Virus record (IMG/VR): IMGVR_UViG_3300037193_001237
Span: 1-25,343 of that record
Length of the DNA stretch: 25,343 nt
Origin: a virus
Strand: one strand, 5' to 3'
Shown piece by piece: positions 1 to 21,815 of this stretch. Within the stretch, counting starts at the first letter, position 1; every line of letters starts with the position of its first letter. The notes beneath the pieces are model-generated. The model ran no database searches. It worked only from the letters and a program-made list of their open reading frames with translations, and was not told the origin of the DNA. The position numbers and the translations under genes were made by a program.

Positions 1-1826
1 AACTCGTTCGTCGGGAGGTGGGTGTCCGGGAAGCTGGTGAACATCAGCTCTCGGCAACGGATCTCGGCAAACCAGAGACTCATGACGCAGTCAGTCAAGC
101 CCTTAGTCTCGGGAAACCAAGAGCAAAGCTGCTCAACGAGAGCGCGAACACTCTCACTCTGCGTCTGGCTCGGGAGGCGAATGAGATTCTTGCCGTCCTC
201 CCAGCCCTCGAAGAGGGTGGCCATGGACGCCACGCCAAAATCAGGGTCCCACTTCCGGGCGTCCGTGAAGTGCGGCTTGATCATGCAGCCCCGGGTCGCC
301 AGTTTCTGACGGATGTCACGGTCCTGGACGATCGACGCCTGATACGCGTTCTTTTCCACGCGCCACTCTTGGACTCCATAGCGCTCCGTCAAGCGATACA
401 TCTCGGAGCGCATCTCATGCGGCGGCAGTGCTCTCTTGTTCACCACGTCCAAGAGCCAGCGCACGCCGGTCTGCCGGTCGAGTCCGATGACCACCATGGC
501 GGTGTATCCAGCGGCTGCCGGGTCGAGCCCGGCTATGACCGCCAAGCCCTCCATGCCGTAGTTCCGGTGCTGCACCTGGCCGGGGAACATCCTGCCCGGG
601 TAGCGGGCCCGATCCACGCACCCTTGCACGGCCTCCTGCTTGAAGACGGCATCGTCGGCAACCTGCTCCTGCTGGTAGACCATCGACCAGTTGCGCGGGC
701 TCATCTTGCGCCGCTTCTTCGCCAGGGCCGGGCCGTTCCACATGGGCCACAGCCCATCCTCGTCCTGAGAGACAAGCTTCCTGGCGGCGATGGTGACCGG
801 CGGCCTGTTGGTCTTCGGCCAGAGCGTCACCCACTCCTCGGGGTCGTCGGCGTACTCCAGAACGGCAGGCTGCGTCAGGTACGTCCAGGGGGACTGACCC
901 TCGGCGTAGTACTGGGGCTTCAGGATCTCCGAGTAGAGGTCTACGGTCTCCATCCGGGTGCCGATGAGGAGCATCCGGCCGCCAGCATCGGCCACACGGG
1001 AACCGACCTGGTTCTGAATCCAGTTGATCTGAGACTCGAATTGCTGGTGGTTCGTGTGGTCCACGCAGTCATCCATGATGGCGAGATCACAGCGGGAGCC
1101 GTAGATGTGGCCGCCGATACCCACGGCCTGAACGGTCGGGTCCTTCTCGCCGGAGTCCCGGCCAGCCACATAGATCTTGTCCGCCGTCCACGCGGCGGCT
1201 CCCTCGGCGAAGCCCCCGGGGGGAGCGAAGGCGAGCTGTAGGTCAACGTACGCCTCGGACTCCGCCAGGCGTTCCTTGATGCTCAGCAGGAACTTCTTAG
1301 CCATGTCCTGCGTCTTGGAAATCAGCAGGATGCGGATGTTCGGGTCCTGGCAAATCCGCCACGTCACGTAGTTCACGGTGAGCGTGGTGCTCTTAGCATG
1401 CTCCGGAGGGGTGTTCACCAAGATCTGGTCTTCGTCACCCCGGATGTAACGCTGGCTCGGGTGAAGCCCCCGGGGCTCCTTGCCCTCCAGCAGGTCATAC
1501 CACTGGAGGTGGTGATTGAAGAGCCGGGTCTTCAGGTACTTCTCGGAGAACTCCGGGAAGTCAGGCAGCTCCTGTCGGTTCCCGGCCTTCTTCTCGATCT
1601 CGGACTGAAGGGCCTGGGTCACCAGCGCCTGGAAGTCGCTGTCCGTCTTCCGGTAGTAGTCGTAGGTCGTGCGGCCCTTCCCGGCCGCAAGGCACGCCTC
1701 GTCAACCGTGTGCCCGATGCGGAGCATCGCGAGAATCGTGCGCTTCGCGTCGGCGGAGGAGAGCTTGGATGCCCGGCGGTCGCGAGAGGCGACCTTGCCG
1801 TTGGCGAGGACCCGAACCTTCGCCAT
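1..1826 (-). CDS. Terminase large subunit (TerL), 3' end outside window
   Basis: ATP-driven DNA packaging motor and nuclease. I translated the minus strand from the ATG at 1826, which has a GGGAGG ribosome site just upstream; 608 codons are open and the gene runs off the left edge. A P-loop-like segment NTPPEHAKSTT lies at residues 138-148 (Lys145), followed by a Walker B block LAIMDD ending at Asp252-Asp253. A C-terminal RNase H-like nuclease domain begins with GLDPAAAG (Asp435) and continues with VEKNAYQ. The order ATPase then nuclease is standard for TerL. Before the ATPase are about 100 residues with a helix-turn-helix-like stretch (HTVDEACLAAGKGRTTYDYY), and no separate small terminase gene is visible next to it. 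First gene of the leftward late operon. Confidence 0.9.
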   Translation of the reverse strand, partial: MAKVRVLANGKVASRDRRASKLSSADAKRTILAMLRIGHTVDEACLAAGKGRTTYDYYRKTDSDFQALVTQALQSEIEKKAGNRQELPDFPEFSEKYLKTRLFNHHLQWYDLLEGKEPRGLHPSQRYIRGDEDQILVNTPPEHAKSTTLTVNYVTWRICQDPNIRILLISKTQDMAKKFLLSIKERLAESEAYVDLQLAFAPPGGFAEGAAAWTADKIYVAGRDSGEKDPTVQAVGIGGHIYGSRCDLAIMDDCVDHTNHQQFESQINWIQNQVGSRVADAGGRMLLIGTRMETVDLYSEILKPQYYAEGQSPWTYLTQPAVLEYADDPEEWVTLWPKTNRPPVTIAARKLVSQDEDGLWPMWNGPALAKKRRKMSPRNWSMVYQQEQVADDAVFKQEAVQGCVDRARYPGRMFPGQVQHRNYGMEGLAVIAGLDPAAAGYTAMVVIGLDRQTGVRWLLDVVNKRALPPHEMRSEMYRLTERYGVQEWRVEKNAYQASIVQDRDIRQKLATRGCMIKPHFTDARKWDPDFGVASMATLFEGWEDGKNLIRLPSQTQSESVRALVEQLCSWFPETKGLTDCVMSLWFAEIRCRELMFTSFPDTHLPTNE

Positions 1827-2222: not shown

Positions 2223-3071
2223 CCAGCCCCGGAGGGCTGGAACGCAGTCCTGGAAAACGCAAGCATTTTTCCGACCATGCTAGACTGCTAGATTAGGCAT
2301 CTGACGATGCAACACAGAAGGCCCGGCGAACCCCGATAGCCGGGCCAACAGAGACTCAACAAGGGCCGCCATCAAGGCGGCCCTAAGAGTTTCCGGAGAG
2401 GCCCTTGAAGGGCCTCCATAGGGCGGCCCTAAGGCCGCCATAGGGGACTGGGGAGTTTGCGAGCGATGGATGGATGAACACCATCCATCCGAGCGAGCCA
2501 AGGATTTAAACATCCCGGGTCATACTGACCCGAATCCGGACAGAGTGAGACAAGATCTCACAAGATCTTGGCTCGCTCGGATGAAACGGAGGAGACCATT
2601 CACTCCTCCGGAGTTCATGGATCTCCCCCTGACCATTGCTTATAGACATACATCTAAGTCTTGTGTGTGGCCTATGGCCACACTCATACATGGTCATATG
2701 GGACACCTTCGGTGTCCCTCATGTGCGTGCCCACTGATGTGGGCACGCCTATGCGTGCATGTGCACGCACGTGAGGGCAGGGCTTGTCAGCCCATGCCCA
2801 TCACTCTTCCGCTCTCGGCAGAGCAACAGCTCTGCCTTGCTGGCCTCATCGCTCCGCACTCGGAATGCCGGAGGGCATTCCTTCGTGCTCCGCCTACCGG
2901 CCGCCCTTCCGGGCGGCCTTTGTCGCGTGCGCGAGGCTACGGCCTCGCTGCTTGTTCCTCGCCGAACTCAAGCCAAGGGCTTGACGTGTGCATGGTGAAT
3001 ACCAGGAGGGCACTTCCTGCCCCCTCCCGGGGGGATGTGTGAGTCAGGCACTTCGGATGCCTGCGGGCATC
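2223..3071. repeat. Dense array of about twenty different hairpins, no gene
   Basis: No ORF here has a ribosome site or protein-like composition. Instead perfect inverted repeats follow one another: 2223-2240 (7 bp), 2297-2310 (5), 2320-2346 (8), 2362-2384 (9), 2398-2416 (7), 2422-2439 (7), 2468-2490 (9), 2516-2532 (7), 2545-2561 (6), 2587-2610 (8), 2665-2683 (8), 2700-2718 (8), 2725-2748 (10), 2752-2769 (7), 2775-2799 (5+5 with a bulge), 2817-2836 (8), 2862-2881 (8), 2899-2918 (8), 2931-2948 (7), 2968-2984 (7) and 3056-3071 (6). Most loops are 3-5 bases. A 17-bp stem (2486-2502 with 2567-2583) encloses two of them and competes with 2468-2490. Stem sequences differ, so structure rather than sequence appears conserved. 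Role unknown. Confidence 0.85.
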
Positions 3072-3900: not shown

Positions 3901-4003
3901 GACAGGCGCGAGCCTGTCACTCGTCATGCGGGCAGGGGGTTGGTAGTGAGTGACGGCGTTGCTGTCAGCGCTGGCTATCAGCTTTCTACAGCTCCCTGCC
4001 CGC
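3901..4003 (+). promoter_or_regulatory. Structured leader of the first rightward early gene
   Basis: A 7-bp hairpin GACAGGC-GCGA-GCCTGTC (3901-3918) with a GNRA-type loop is followed by a 10-bp stem joining GCGGGCAGGG (3928-3937) to CCCTGCCCGC (3994-4003). The second arm ends 5 bases before the AGGAGAGG ribosome site of the gene at 4025, so folding could influence its translation. I could not identify convincing -35/-10 hexamers upstream. Confidence 0.45.
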
Positions 4004-4024
4004 TTGATGAGGAGAGGAAAGATC

Positions 4025-4237: not shown

Positions 4238-4297
4238 TCCTGCCGGAGCATCGGGCGCACAGTCTTCTGTGCGCCCTTTTGCTCTTACAGGAGAGGA
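4238..4297 (+). promoter_or_regulatory. Intergenic stop-hairpin-ribosome-site element, copy 1
   Basis: TCCTGCCGG follows the stop codon directly. Then comes a perfect 10-bp hairpin, GGGCGCACAG-TCTT-CTGTGCGCCC (4253-4276), followed by TTTT, which is terminator-like. Then ACAGGAGAGG supplies the next ribosome site. TCCTG (4238-4242) is the exact reverse complement of CAGGA (4288-4292), so the element could close on itself and mask the ribosome site. Confidence 0.7.
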
Positions 4298-4688: not shown

Positions 4689-4752
4689 CCCCTGCCGGAC
4701 CCGAGAGCGCGCAGCGCTATACTGTGCGCTCGACTGGTCTTACAGGAGAGGA
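4689..4752 (+). promoter_or_regulatory. Intergenic stop-hairpin-ribosome-site element, copy 2
   Basis: CCCTGCCGG after the TAG, then a 10-bp hairpin GAGCGCGCAG/CTGTGCGCTC (4705-4731, one G-U pair), then ACAGGAGAGG ahead of the ATG at 4760. Stem sequence differs from copy 1 but the layout is the same. Confidence 0.7.
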
Positions 4753-4759
4753 AGAGGCC

Positions 4760-4999: not shown

Positions 5000-5353
5000 A
5001 TGCAAAAGGAACTCGTTGGCGTCAACTGCCTAGCGCGCGAACTGAAAGCGCGCGACTTGATCAAACAAAGCTCCACATCTTCGGCATATTGGCTCGTTGT
5101 CGGTCGCCCCCGCGTCCAGGGCGACAAAGTCTTTCTCGTTGTGCGAGAGAGCAACCGTTACAGTGAGAGGGTAGGCGAGCGGCAAGAGCGGAAATATGAG
5201 GCTGATTATCACGTGCAGATTCTCCGATGGGTGGACTCGCGTTGCCCGGTCTGCGGCGAAGAATTCCCCCACATGCACGGCCGCTATCAACACCAGGTCG
5301 AAGAGGGTCATTGGAGCATTGACTACCCCGGAGACCCGCGCGGGGAAGACTGA
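5000..5353 (+). CDS. Hypothetical protein with C-terminal zinc finger, 117 aa
   Basis: Unrecognised. The ATG at 5000 lies 2 bases after ACAGGAGAGG, closer than at the sister genes but the only start that fits. The N-terminal 80 residues are charged and probably alpha/beta (YWLVVGRPRVQGDKVFLVVR). The C-terminal part has CPVCGEEFPHMHGRYQHQVEEGH, a classical Cys-x2-Cys followed by several histidines, compatible with one C2H2-type zinc site. DNA or RNA binding is plausible but not shown. Confidence 0.75.
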   Translation: MQKELVGVNCLARELKARDLIKQSSTSSAYWLVVGRPRVQGDKVFLVVRESNRYSERVGERQERKYEADYHVQILRWVDSRCPVCGEEFPHMHGRYQHQVEEGHWSIDYPGDPRGED

Positions 5354-5416
5354 CCTGTAAGAGGCATCGGGCGCACGTACACGCGACGTGCGTCCTGTTG
5401 CTTCCGCAGGAGAGGA
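5354..5416 (+). promoter_or_regulatory. Intergenic stop-hairpin-ribosome-site element, copy 4
   Basis: CCTGTAAGAGG replaces CCTGCCGG. A 10-bp hairpin GGGCGCACGT/ACGTGCGTCC with one G-U pair (5369-5395) follows, then TTGCTTCCGCAGGAGAGG. Same layout as copies 1-3. Confidence 0.65.
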
Positions 5417-5686: not shown

Positions 5687-5746
5687 ACCCTGCCGTAGCG
5701 ACTTGGCCACCGATCCCCACTCGGTGGCCTTGTTGCTTCTACAGGG
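5687..5746 (+). promoter_or_regulatory. Intergenic stop-hairpin element, copy 5
   Basis: ACCCTGCCG after the TAG, a perfect 9-bp hairpin GGCCACCGA/TCGGTGGCC (5705-5729), then TTGTTGCTTCTACAGGGAG. The ribosome-site end is degenerate, and a second hairpin and a new ribosome site follow before the next gene. Confidence 0.6.
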
Positions 5747-20583: not shown

Positions 20584-21017
20584 CGAACAAGTCAAAGGAG
20601 CGGGGCACCGAGACAGAGCGCTTGGTGGTCAACTACCTCAAGCAGTGGTGGCCCATGGCGGAGAGACGGGCCCTTGCCGGAGAACTGGACAAGGGCGACA
20701 TCATCAACGTCCCGATGACCGTAGTTGAGGTCAAGGGCGACCGTCAGCAGGTGCCCAGCAATCTCGCCAAGTGGCGAGAAGAGACCGTGGCGGAGATGCT
20801 GAATGACCAACATGCACAATTCTGCATGCTGGTAGTTCGCCTTGAGGGCAGAGGCGTGGAACGCTGGGACGCCTGGATGCCTTTCCGGCAGCTTGGGATA
20901 CCCCTGTACGGGGAGGACGAATGGGCCCGTATGAATCTGAGCGTCGCCGTTCCGGTGCTTCAGCACCTCCACAGCTTCCCCTCGCTCCCGTTCTTGAAGC
21001 GTACGGAGTCGAAGTAA
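20580..21017 (+). CDS. Hjc-like Holliday junction resolvase / PD-(D/E)XK nuclease, 145 aa
   Basis: The GTG at 20580 overlaps the MazG-like stop (GTGA); the in-frame ATG at 20568 is less likely. The N-terminus NKSKERGTETERLVVNYL is the basic helix with catalytic Glu of archaeal Hjc-type resolvases. GELDKGDI contains Asp40, and VVEVKGDR contains Glu50-x-Lys52. The length is normal for Hjc-like phage enzymes. Resolves branched replication or recombination intermediates before packaging. Confidence 0.8.
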   Translation: MTNKSKERGTETERLVVNYLKQWWPMAERRALAGELDKGDIINVPMTVVEVKGDRQQVPSNLAKWREETVAEMLNDQHAQFCMLVVRLEGRGVERWDAWMPFRQLGIPLYGEDEWARMNLSVAVPVLQHLHSFPSLPFLKRTESK

Positions 21018-21331
21018 CAGGGGACCGCTGGGGCGAGCAGACCATCTGCTGCCCTGTACACGGAGACAGACGCCCTTCTATGAGAGTCAACGTTGGGAAG
21101 GGCGTCTTCTTCTGCCACTCGTGCGGCGCCAAGGGGGGCGCCGTACATCTGATCATGGCCATGGAGAGCACCACATATGAAGACGCTGTCAGCAGAGGAG
21201 AGGCGCTTCTTCGAGAGCGCGGTATCGCAGTACCAAAGCGGACTTCGGGCCGATACCAGAGGCCAGGAGTATCTGACGGGCCGGGGGATCGGGCCCGAGG
21301 TCGCCGGTACGTTCCGCCTGGGCGTAGTTAA
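20921..21331 (+). CDS. Primase zinc-finger (CHC2) protein, 136 aa
   Basis: The ATG at 20921 follows GGGGAGGA and overlaps the resolvase gene by 97 bases in another frame. The core TICCPVHGDRRPSM then GVFFCHSCGAKGG contains Cys44, His47, Cys65, Cys68, the CHC2 zinc-binding domain that reads primer-initiation sites in DnaG-type primases. After about residue 105 the sequence turns into low-complexity Arg/Gly, while the reading frame of the TOPRIM gene takes over. It therefore forms the N-terminal half of a primase split across two overlapping genes. Confidence 0.82.
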   Translation: MGPYESERRRSGASAPPQLPLAPVLEAYGVEVTGDRWGEQTICCPVHGDRRPSMRVNVGKGVFFCHSCGAKGGAVHLIMAMESTTYEDAVSRGEALLRERGIAVPKRTSGRYQRPGVSDGPGDRARGRRYVPPGRS

Positions 21332-21815
21332 CAATCCTCTCGCTGGCCACGAGTCATACCGGGGCCGACTGGCCATCCCCTACCTGACCCCGTCAGGGCC
21401 GGTCAACCTCCGCTTCCGATGCCTGAAGCCCCATGACTGCAAGGCGGAGAACTGCCCGAAGTACGTCAGCCTTGACGGAGCTGACACGAACCTGTTCAAC
21501 GTTGCTGCCCTGAAGGCAGAGTCCCCCCATATCTGTGTGACCGAGGGCGAGATTGACACCATCACCCTCACCATGTGCGGCATCGCCGCCGTGGGCGTTC
21601 CTGGTGTCGAGAACTGGCAAGAACACTTCCGACTCTGCCTTGACGACTTCGACGTTGTTTACGTCCTCGGGGACGGAGACAAAGCCGGTCGCAAGTTCAG
21701 CTCATTCCTGGCCCGGGAAGCCAGGGCGAGAAAGATTCAACTCCCGAGAGGAGAGGACGTAAATGACCTCTACAGACGAGCAGGGGCCGACGCAGTTCGA
21801 GGACTCCTCGGCTAA
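21177..21815 (+). CDS. Primase catalytic (TOPRIM) protein, 212 aa
   Basis: ATG at 21177 with GGAGAG 8 bases upstream, overlapping the CHC2 gene by 155 bases in the +1 frame. The N-terminal part (YLTGRGIGPEVAGTFRLGVV, then RGRLAIPYLTPSG) matches the primase RNA-polymerase-core fold. The TOPRIM domain follows: VTEGEIDT with Glu123, Glu125 and Asp127, and LGDGDKAGR with Asp166 and Asp168. It ends in the usual PRGEDVNDLYR segment. Together with the CHC2 protein it makes a complete primase. Confidence 0.85.
   Translation: MKTLSAEERRFFESAVSQYQSGLRADTRGQEYLTGRGIGPEVAGTFRLGVVNNPLAGHESYRGRLAIPYLTPSGPVNLRFRCLKPHDCKAENCPKYVSLDGADTNLFNVAALKAESPHICVTEGEIDTITLTMCGIAAVGVPGVENWQEHFRLCLDDFDVVYVLGDGDKAGRKFSSFLAREARARKIQLPRGEDVNDLYRRAGADAVRGLLG

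Follow-up and report, generated by a model that had tools for sequence, protein, structure and literature searches.

An array of unlike, covarying hairpins beside the terminase gene of Streptomyces phages: a candidate folded-DNA element at the genome end

Introduction

What is the role of about 20 perfect hairpins, all different in sequence, packed into gene-free DNA between the large terminase gene (terL) and the divergent early genes of a virus? The hairpins lie in the IMG/VR virus fragment IMGVR_UViG_3300037193_001237 (25,343 bp, positions 1 to 25,343 of that record), the whole of which was analysed and is called the window below. A sequence-only reading of this DNA had proposed that selection acts on the structure, and had considered four meanings: a structured phage RNA, a packaging or end region, an origin of replication, or a multi-terminator insulator. 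Here, we examine these readings using folding, comparison with relatives and the genome ends of cultured phages.

Results

The hairpin array in the window

Between 2223 and 2984, 17 non-overlapping perfect Watson-Crick hairpins (stem of at least 7 bp, loop of 3-8 nt) were counted, as compared to 0.3 on average, and never more than 2, in dinucleotide shuffles of the same stretch (n = 200). The run of hairpins seen by eye is therefore real. With a stem cut-off of at least 5 bp, 19 hairpins were found against a shuffle mean of 4.3, and a few shorter ones continue at 3003-3071. Stems of 5-10 bp, all different in sequence, and loops mostly of 3-5 nt had been described, and this was borne out. The statement that more than half of the bases sit in perfect repeats was slightly high: 38% of 2223-2984 is in stems and 48% in stems plus loops, about half being reached once a 17-bp stem is added. 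The arms of this stem, which we call P1, are an exact match as had been claimed. P1 indeed holds two hairpins, P2 and P3, and a hairpin of the earlier description, at 2551-2570, competes with P3 (Table 1). Another hairpin, P0, overlaps the outer end of P1, so that pairing of the two would compete.

Folding of the whole stretch was compared with 20 shuffles for each strand. As RNA, z was -10.3 for the plus strand and -14.2 for the minus strand; as DNA, the values were -12.3 and -16.7, the minus strand folded as DNA being the best of the four. Both strands thus fold far better than dinucleotide-shuffled controls (z about -10 to -17). When the entire 25-kb window was scanned in 200-nt tiles, no second stretch of similar length was comparable to the array. 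The open reading frame at 2470-3042, which crosses part of the array region, is a mechanical one.

Table 1. Coordinates of terL and of the array features in the window
Feature	Position	Strand	Remarks
terL, large terminase	3..1826	-	Open reading frame and translation; matches to PHROG terminase large and small subunits
Left (terL-side) part of the array	2223..2439		Perfect hairpins at 2223-2240, 2252-2272, 2297-2310, 2362-2384, 2398-2416, 2422-2439
Left-part stem, 8 bp with 11-nt loop	2320-2346		
Motif A (ATAGGGGACTGGGGAGTT)	2440..2457		In array-bearing phages, CTGGGGxGTTTG is conserved, some 57 bp before the core
Hairpin P0 (GGATGGATG/CATCCATCC)	2468..2490		Position conserved, compensatory changes
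P1 left arm, 17 bp	2486..2502		Spacing from the core places the predicted genome end at its outer edge
Conserved core, here ATTTAAACATCCCGGGTCAT, consensus GTTTAACACCCGGGGTCAAA	2504..2523		Also just inside the DTR of cultured Beephvirinae
Hairpin P2 within P1 (CGGGTCA/TGACCCG)	2516..2532		
Hairpin P3 within P1 (GTGAGA/TCTCAC)	2545..2561		Competes with the 2551-2570 hairpin
P1 right arm	2567..2583		Exact complement of 2486-2502
Right (early-gene-side) part of the array	2587..2984		Hairpins at 2587, 2665, 2700, 2725, 2752, 2780, 2817, 2862, 2899, 2931, 2968; shorter ones to 3071
GCGTGCGCGAGG, alternating CGCGCG element	2925..2936		Such elements recur in many relatives towards the right end of their arrays

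The terL frame runs past the left end of the window and its transcription is directed away from the array. Residues about 15-79 of TerL match small-terminase (HTH) families. Between terL and the array, a small plus-strand open reading frame (1926-2195) carries a CxxC...HxxC pattern and matches phrog_1581, of unknown function (E 4e-9).

Arrays of the same kind in relatives

In about 45 non-redundant loci whose TerL identity is at least 58%, among them sequences from four sequenced Streptomyces, perfect hairpins are densely packed in the corresponding position, some 300-1500 bp upstream of terL. Streptomyces hoynatensis KCTC 29097, S. composti SBST2-5 and S. himalayensis PSKA28 are sequenced lysogens. 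The clade at 52-55% TerL identity is without the array. Across 47 loci, 421 stems of at least 8 pairs were counted, versus 35 from mononucleotide shuffles. Each phage has a dozen or more hairpins around a single conserved core, and hairpin density is centred on this core, mostly from about -250 to +500 bp. The core consensus is recognisable in 42 of the 47 loci, several of the missing ones being truncated contigs; motif A (CTGGGGAGTTTG) precedes it in array phages at the spacing given in Table 1. The hairpin sequences are unlike between phages and also within one phage. Scanning IMG/VR with the core alone returned few loci, and a search of the open-access literature found no described phage element of this kind.

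Covariation of the central stem

The geometry of P1 was compared in 38 phages. The stem has 9-20 bp, its outer edge lies 15-23 bp before the core, and it encloses the core together with 1-3 hairpins in 37 phages and with five in the remaining one, further hairpins lying beyond. The arms vary in sequence among phages and the pairing is kept: the median score of an arm with its own partner is 14, as compared to 6 with partners from other phages. Watson-Crick pairs account for 451 of the 457 P1 pairs, and none is G-T.

Covariation was counted in an alignment of 22 sequences anchored on the core. All 15 aligned P1 pairs had changed on both sides and none on one side only. For P0 and P1 taken together, compensatory changes were observed at 17 of the 20 aligned pairs, with 86 double-changed cells and again no one-sided change. 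None of 500 shuffles reached the observed covariation on any measure, and sliding the partner by one column halved the pairing. An earlier count, made of pairwise stem changes on MAFFT-aligned arrays, was diluted by misalignment and by coding hairpins, and the anchored core alignment replaced it.

Overall, the proposal of selection on structure is strongly supported: about 45 relatives have such arrays in the corresponding position, with unlike sequences, and the central stem covaries. The sequence-only reading had pointed to compensatory changes in relatives as a test, and these are present in P1; it had named absence of the hairpins from close relatives as an argument against itself, and about 45 relatives carry arrays.

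Relation to the terminal repeats of Beephvirinae

No DNA-level match to cultured phages, near or distant, was found. By TerL, the closest cultured phages are Streptomyces podoviruses of the subfamily Beephvirinae (53-55% identity); still nearer are contigs from IMG/VR and from sequenced Streptomyces. The records of six cultured Beephvirinae (Manuel, WRightOn, Immanuel3, FlowerPower, RosePharie and Stella) have direct terminal repeats (DTRs) of 253-276 bp. A 265-bp terminal repeat and podovirus morphology have been described for a cluster BF podovirus (PMC13097060). In the six records, the terL-proximal DTR edge always reads GGGACT then CACTCC, and the core starts 21-22 bp inside. Transferred to the window, this distance falls within a few bp of the start of P1. 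The genome end is thus predicted, by its spacing from the core, at about 2483, adjoining the outer edge of P1 at 2486. Motif A resembles the GGGGACT at the Beephvirinae DTR edge and predicts an alternative end at 2449/2450.

The array and the Beephvirinae DTR edge are homologous by position and by core: both lie between terL and the early genes and carry the same core motif. Beephvirinae, however, have neither the array nor P1, and few hairpins in their intergenic region. Because the DTR edge adjoins the same core motif in cultured relatives, a packaging or end region is the best supported of the four meanings considered earlier. In the search for the far edge of the terminal repeat, the sole recurring feature was the low-complexity CGCGCG element, a possible, weak marker of that edge at 2925..2936.

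The ends of contigs tend to fall in the array region. However, several contigs of full length are circularly closed and hairpins may interrupt assembly, for which reasons this clustering was dropped as a sign of genome ends. Circular closure fits collapsed repeats or permutation alike. In the Beephvirinae DTRs (loci L052, L054 and L164-L173), repeated TGTCCGATTTG/CAAATCGGACA-like words are found in and beside the terminal repeats, where array phages have hairpins.

Discussion

A folded single strand at the genome end

We propose that the array acts in cis, as DNA, at the genome end of a Streptomyces phage family, where the terminal-repeat edge and the concatemer junction lie, and that it does so as folded single-stranded DNA, a reading to which we give even chances. 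The mechanism that we infer would start when the concatemer is cut, or when a linear end is resected or incompletely replicated. The 3′-ended strand at the early-gene-side end, the minus strand here, would then fold: its terminal 17 nt would pair with a stretch 64 nt further in, with two hairpins between and others after. Such a fold could protect the end as a cap from exonucleases, could serve as a fold-back 3′ primer or a protein-binding platform for completing and duplicating the terminal repeat, or could do both. A hairpin intermediate in terminal-repeat duplication, in the style of T7, would be another form of the same idea.

The lack of one-sided G-U changes in P1, the scarcity of tetraloops, the fold of the minus strand as DNA and an excess of GNA triloops indirectly point to DNA rather than RNA. 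Right of the core, 41 GNA triloops lie on the minus strand, the presumed exposed one, versus 12, the left side being uninformative (4 versus 2). The loop strand bias also seemed to be reversed from one side of the array to the other, an effect that vanished after removal of duplicate hairpins and of the core.

Several points stand against this proposal. The DTR on which it builds is carried over by homology from relatives about 54% identical in TerL. The cut predicted from motif A (2449/2450) differs slightly from that predicted by spacing (about 2483). An end cap by itself would not account for the hairpins that continue for about 260 bp past the predicted end towards terL, and the GNA strand bias is confined to the right side.

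Other readings of the array

If the array were transcribed into a long structured non-coding RNA (acting as decoy, regulator or packaging RNA) and selection acted on the RNA fold, this would account for the RNA folding z on both strands, for covariation of the kind seen in structured RNAs and for the gene-free character of the region. Against it, no one-sided G-U change was observed in 20 aligned pairs of 22 sequences and no G-T in the 457 P1 pairs, UUCG and GNRA tetraloops are nearly absent from the array, and both strands fold well. Rfam 15 gave no match to the array at gathering score, and chance-level hits only at a relaxed threshold. Wobble symmetry (G-T versus A-C) over all stems showed no bias in the array and none in early-gene hairpins, and is thus a weak control. 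The RNA reading proposed earlier keeps its support from folding and covariation; the wobble pattern of P1 and the near absence of RNA-type tetraloops make it disfavoured, and we give it a small but real chance. We hold it unlikely that the array is a terminase recognition (pac) site, in which P1, the core, the hairpins or duplex dyads would be bound by the TerS-like HTH fused to TerL, with no single-stranded stage. Its place beside terL and at the DTR edge of relatives, and the small-terminase match of the TerL N-terminus, would suit such a site, and inverted repeats varying among phages could co-evolve with a DNA-binding domain. However, about 20 unlike hairpins in one phage are not repeated binding sites, loops of 3-5 nt and C-G closing pairs point to folding rather than to duplex dyads, and relatives with a similar TerL package their DNA without the array.

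Single-stranded hairpins act as priming sites in other replicons, and the phage encodes a primase and a DnaB-like helicase that could recognise such hairpins at a replication origin or primosome loading region, for which a gene-free region between divergent operons would be a suitable place. As no initiator or iterons were identified, and as no origin is needed to explain the location when the core coincides with the DTR edge of relatives, we find this quite improbable. Template switching at fold-backs could also correct the arms to perfect palindromes, leaving most hairpins without function. Perfect pairing, double changes without one-sided intermediates and fast sequence turnover are indeed expected from arm-templated correction or agree with it. 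We nevertheless regard a mutational by-product as very improbable, given that position, geometry and core are conserved across about 45 phages and that such hairpin density is absent from the rest of the same genomes; arm correction would, moreover, still require frequently single-stranded DNA at the array. As for the multi-terminator insulator between divergent operons, the hairpins are perfect and G+C-rich, and Streptomyces terminators can lack long T-runs. However, both flanking operons, that of terL and the early one, are directed outwards, leaving little transcription to block, and only one array hairpin, at 2931-2948, has a T-rich tail, so that this earlier suggestion appears hardly credible.

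Comparison with known systems

The end of the Streptomyces telomere is a 3′ overhang of roughly 300 nt with packed palindromes, in which palindrome I is complementary to part of palindrome IV, and II and III, closed by sheared G-A pairs, lie between; the first palindrome, of 13 nt, pairs with part of the later one (PMC4513846). The array resembles this layout in its packed unlike palindromes near a predicted replicon end, the first pairing with a later one around hairpins as P1 does (I/IV enclosing II/III, as compared to P1 enclosing 1-3 hairpins in 37 of 38 phages), possibly in the GNA-type triloops that lie right of the core on its predicted 3′-ended strand, and in its hosts. It differs in that telomeres have inverted repeats, whereas the phage repeats are expected, from Beephvirinae, to be direct; in that the array also lies inside circular or integrated prophage; and in that its hairpins, about 20 in 750-850 bp, flank the predicted end on either side. 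Comparison of 2223-3071 with 72,556 plasmid records, in which linear plasmid ends may be incomplete, gave no match, and no terminal-protein or telomere-associated gene (tpg/tap) was recognised among about 20 window proteins scanned. The array can thus be likened to the Streptomyces telomere by layout only, as an analogy, and is not classed as one because no similar sequence was found among the plasmid records, direct repeats are expected and no terminal-protein gene was seen among the window proteins scanned.

At the concatemer junction of T7, a hairpin end has been proposed as an intermediate when the terminal repeat is duplicated. The podoviral relatives share with T7 a short direct terminal repeat and a junction adjoining terL; a hairpin-end intermediate would be a further likeness, drawn by analogy. 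We know of no array of about 20 hairpins in T7. Phage N4 carries, near its genome end, a few shared-sequence hairpin promoters with a short stem and a 3-nt loop, used by its giant virion RNA polymerase. Short-stem, 3-nt-loop DNA hairpins near a genome end, a predicted one in the array phages, are common to both N4 and the array, whereas the array hairpins are many and unlike each other; a small set of shared-sequence hairpins of the N4 type was not found in the array.

Going further, we put forward tentatively, and with more doubt than conviction, that the array represents a new class of viral genome end. This would be a telomere-like forest of about 20 fast-evolving DNA hairpins at the terminal repeat of a tailed dsDNA phage, in which pairing and not sequence is selected. 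It would come into use on a single-stranded end, protecting it and letting it prime the completion of the repeat by itself, and would have arisen in parallel with the telomeres of the Streptomyces hosts. If true, tailed phages, in which selection on folded DNA has rarely been documented, would have a DNA-level structure that is large and covaries strongly. Such an end would tie the formation of phage terminal repeats to the palindromic telomeres of the same Streptomyces hosts, and open the question of how actinomycete phages complete and protect their linear DNA ends. The array is also a warning that covariation by itself is no proof of RNA.

Early genes and other observations

The early genes run rightward and encode a primase, a DnaB-like helicase, an exonuclease, a RusA-like resolvase, a tyrosine integrase, an excisionase-like protein and a WhiB-like protein. 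Because an integrase is present, the phage group is presumably temperate. The primase occupies two overlapping frames (20921-21815), one with the zinc-binding part (20921-21331) and one with the Toprim part (21177-21815), reflecting either a frameshift or two genes; split primases are present in other actinophage clusters (PMC13097060). A recurring unit spaces the early genes (4239-4296, 4691-4755, 5369-5410 and 5705-5729): CTGCCGG is followed by a perfect hairpin whose tail is T-rich, and this by ACAGGAGAGGA, the ribosome-binding site. Just before the first early gene, 3924-4007 gives a weak match to the DUF3800-IV RNA (RF02963, 37.9 bits, below the gathering score of 60.7). Positions 3911-3937 are 96-100% identical over 22-27 nt in four relatives (L003, L004, L006 and L019), the rest of the intergenic DNA being mostly unconserved.

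In the Streptomyces hoynatensis phage (L055), a type II hammerhead ribozyme (RF02276, 52.8 bits, E 5e-8, above gathering score) was found at 5090-5154 on the minus strand, about 2.9 kb upstream of terL and on the early-gene strand; neither the window nor eleven other relatives gave a type II hammerhead at gathering score. In one relative (L044, G014:C1:11077-13848), TerL matches in two pieces about 940 bases apart; both belong to a single open frame of 981 codons, suggesting that an element such as an intein has been inserted in frame. Finally, the S. hoynatensis contig NZ_RBAL01000034.1 has the length of a phage genome (46,451 bp, coverage 273). It starts with the integrase and stops beside the WhiB-like gene, an arrangement which suggests that the break lies at the attachment site and that the phage is free or is actively excising.
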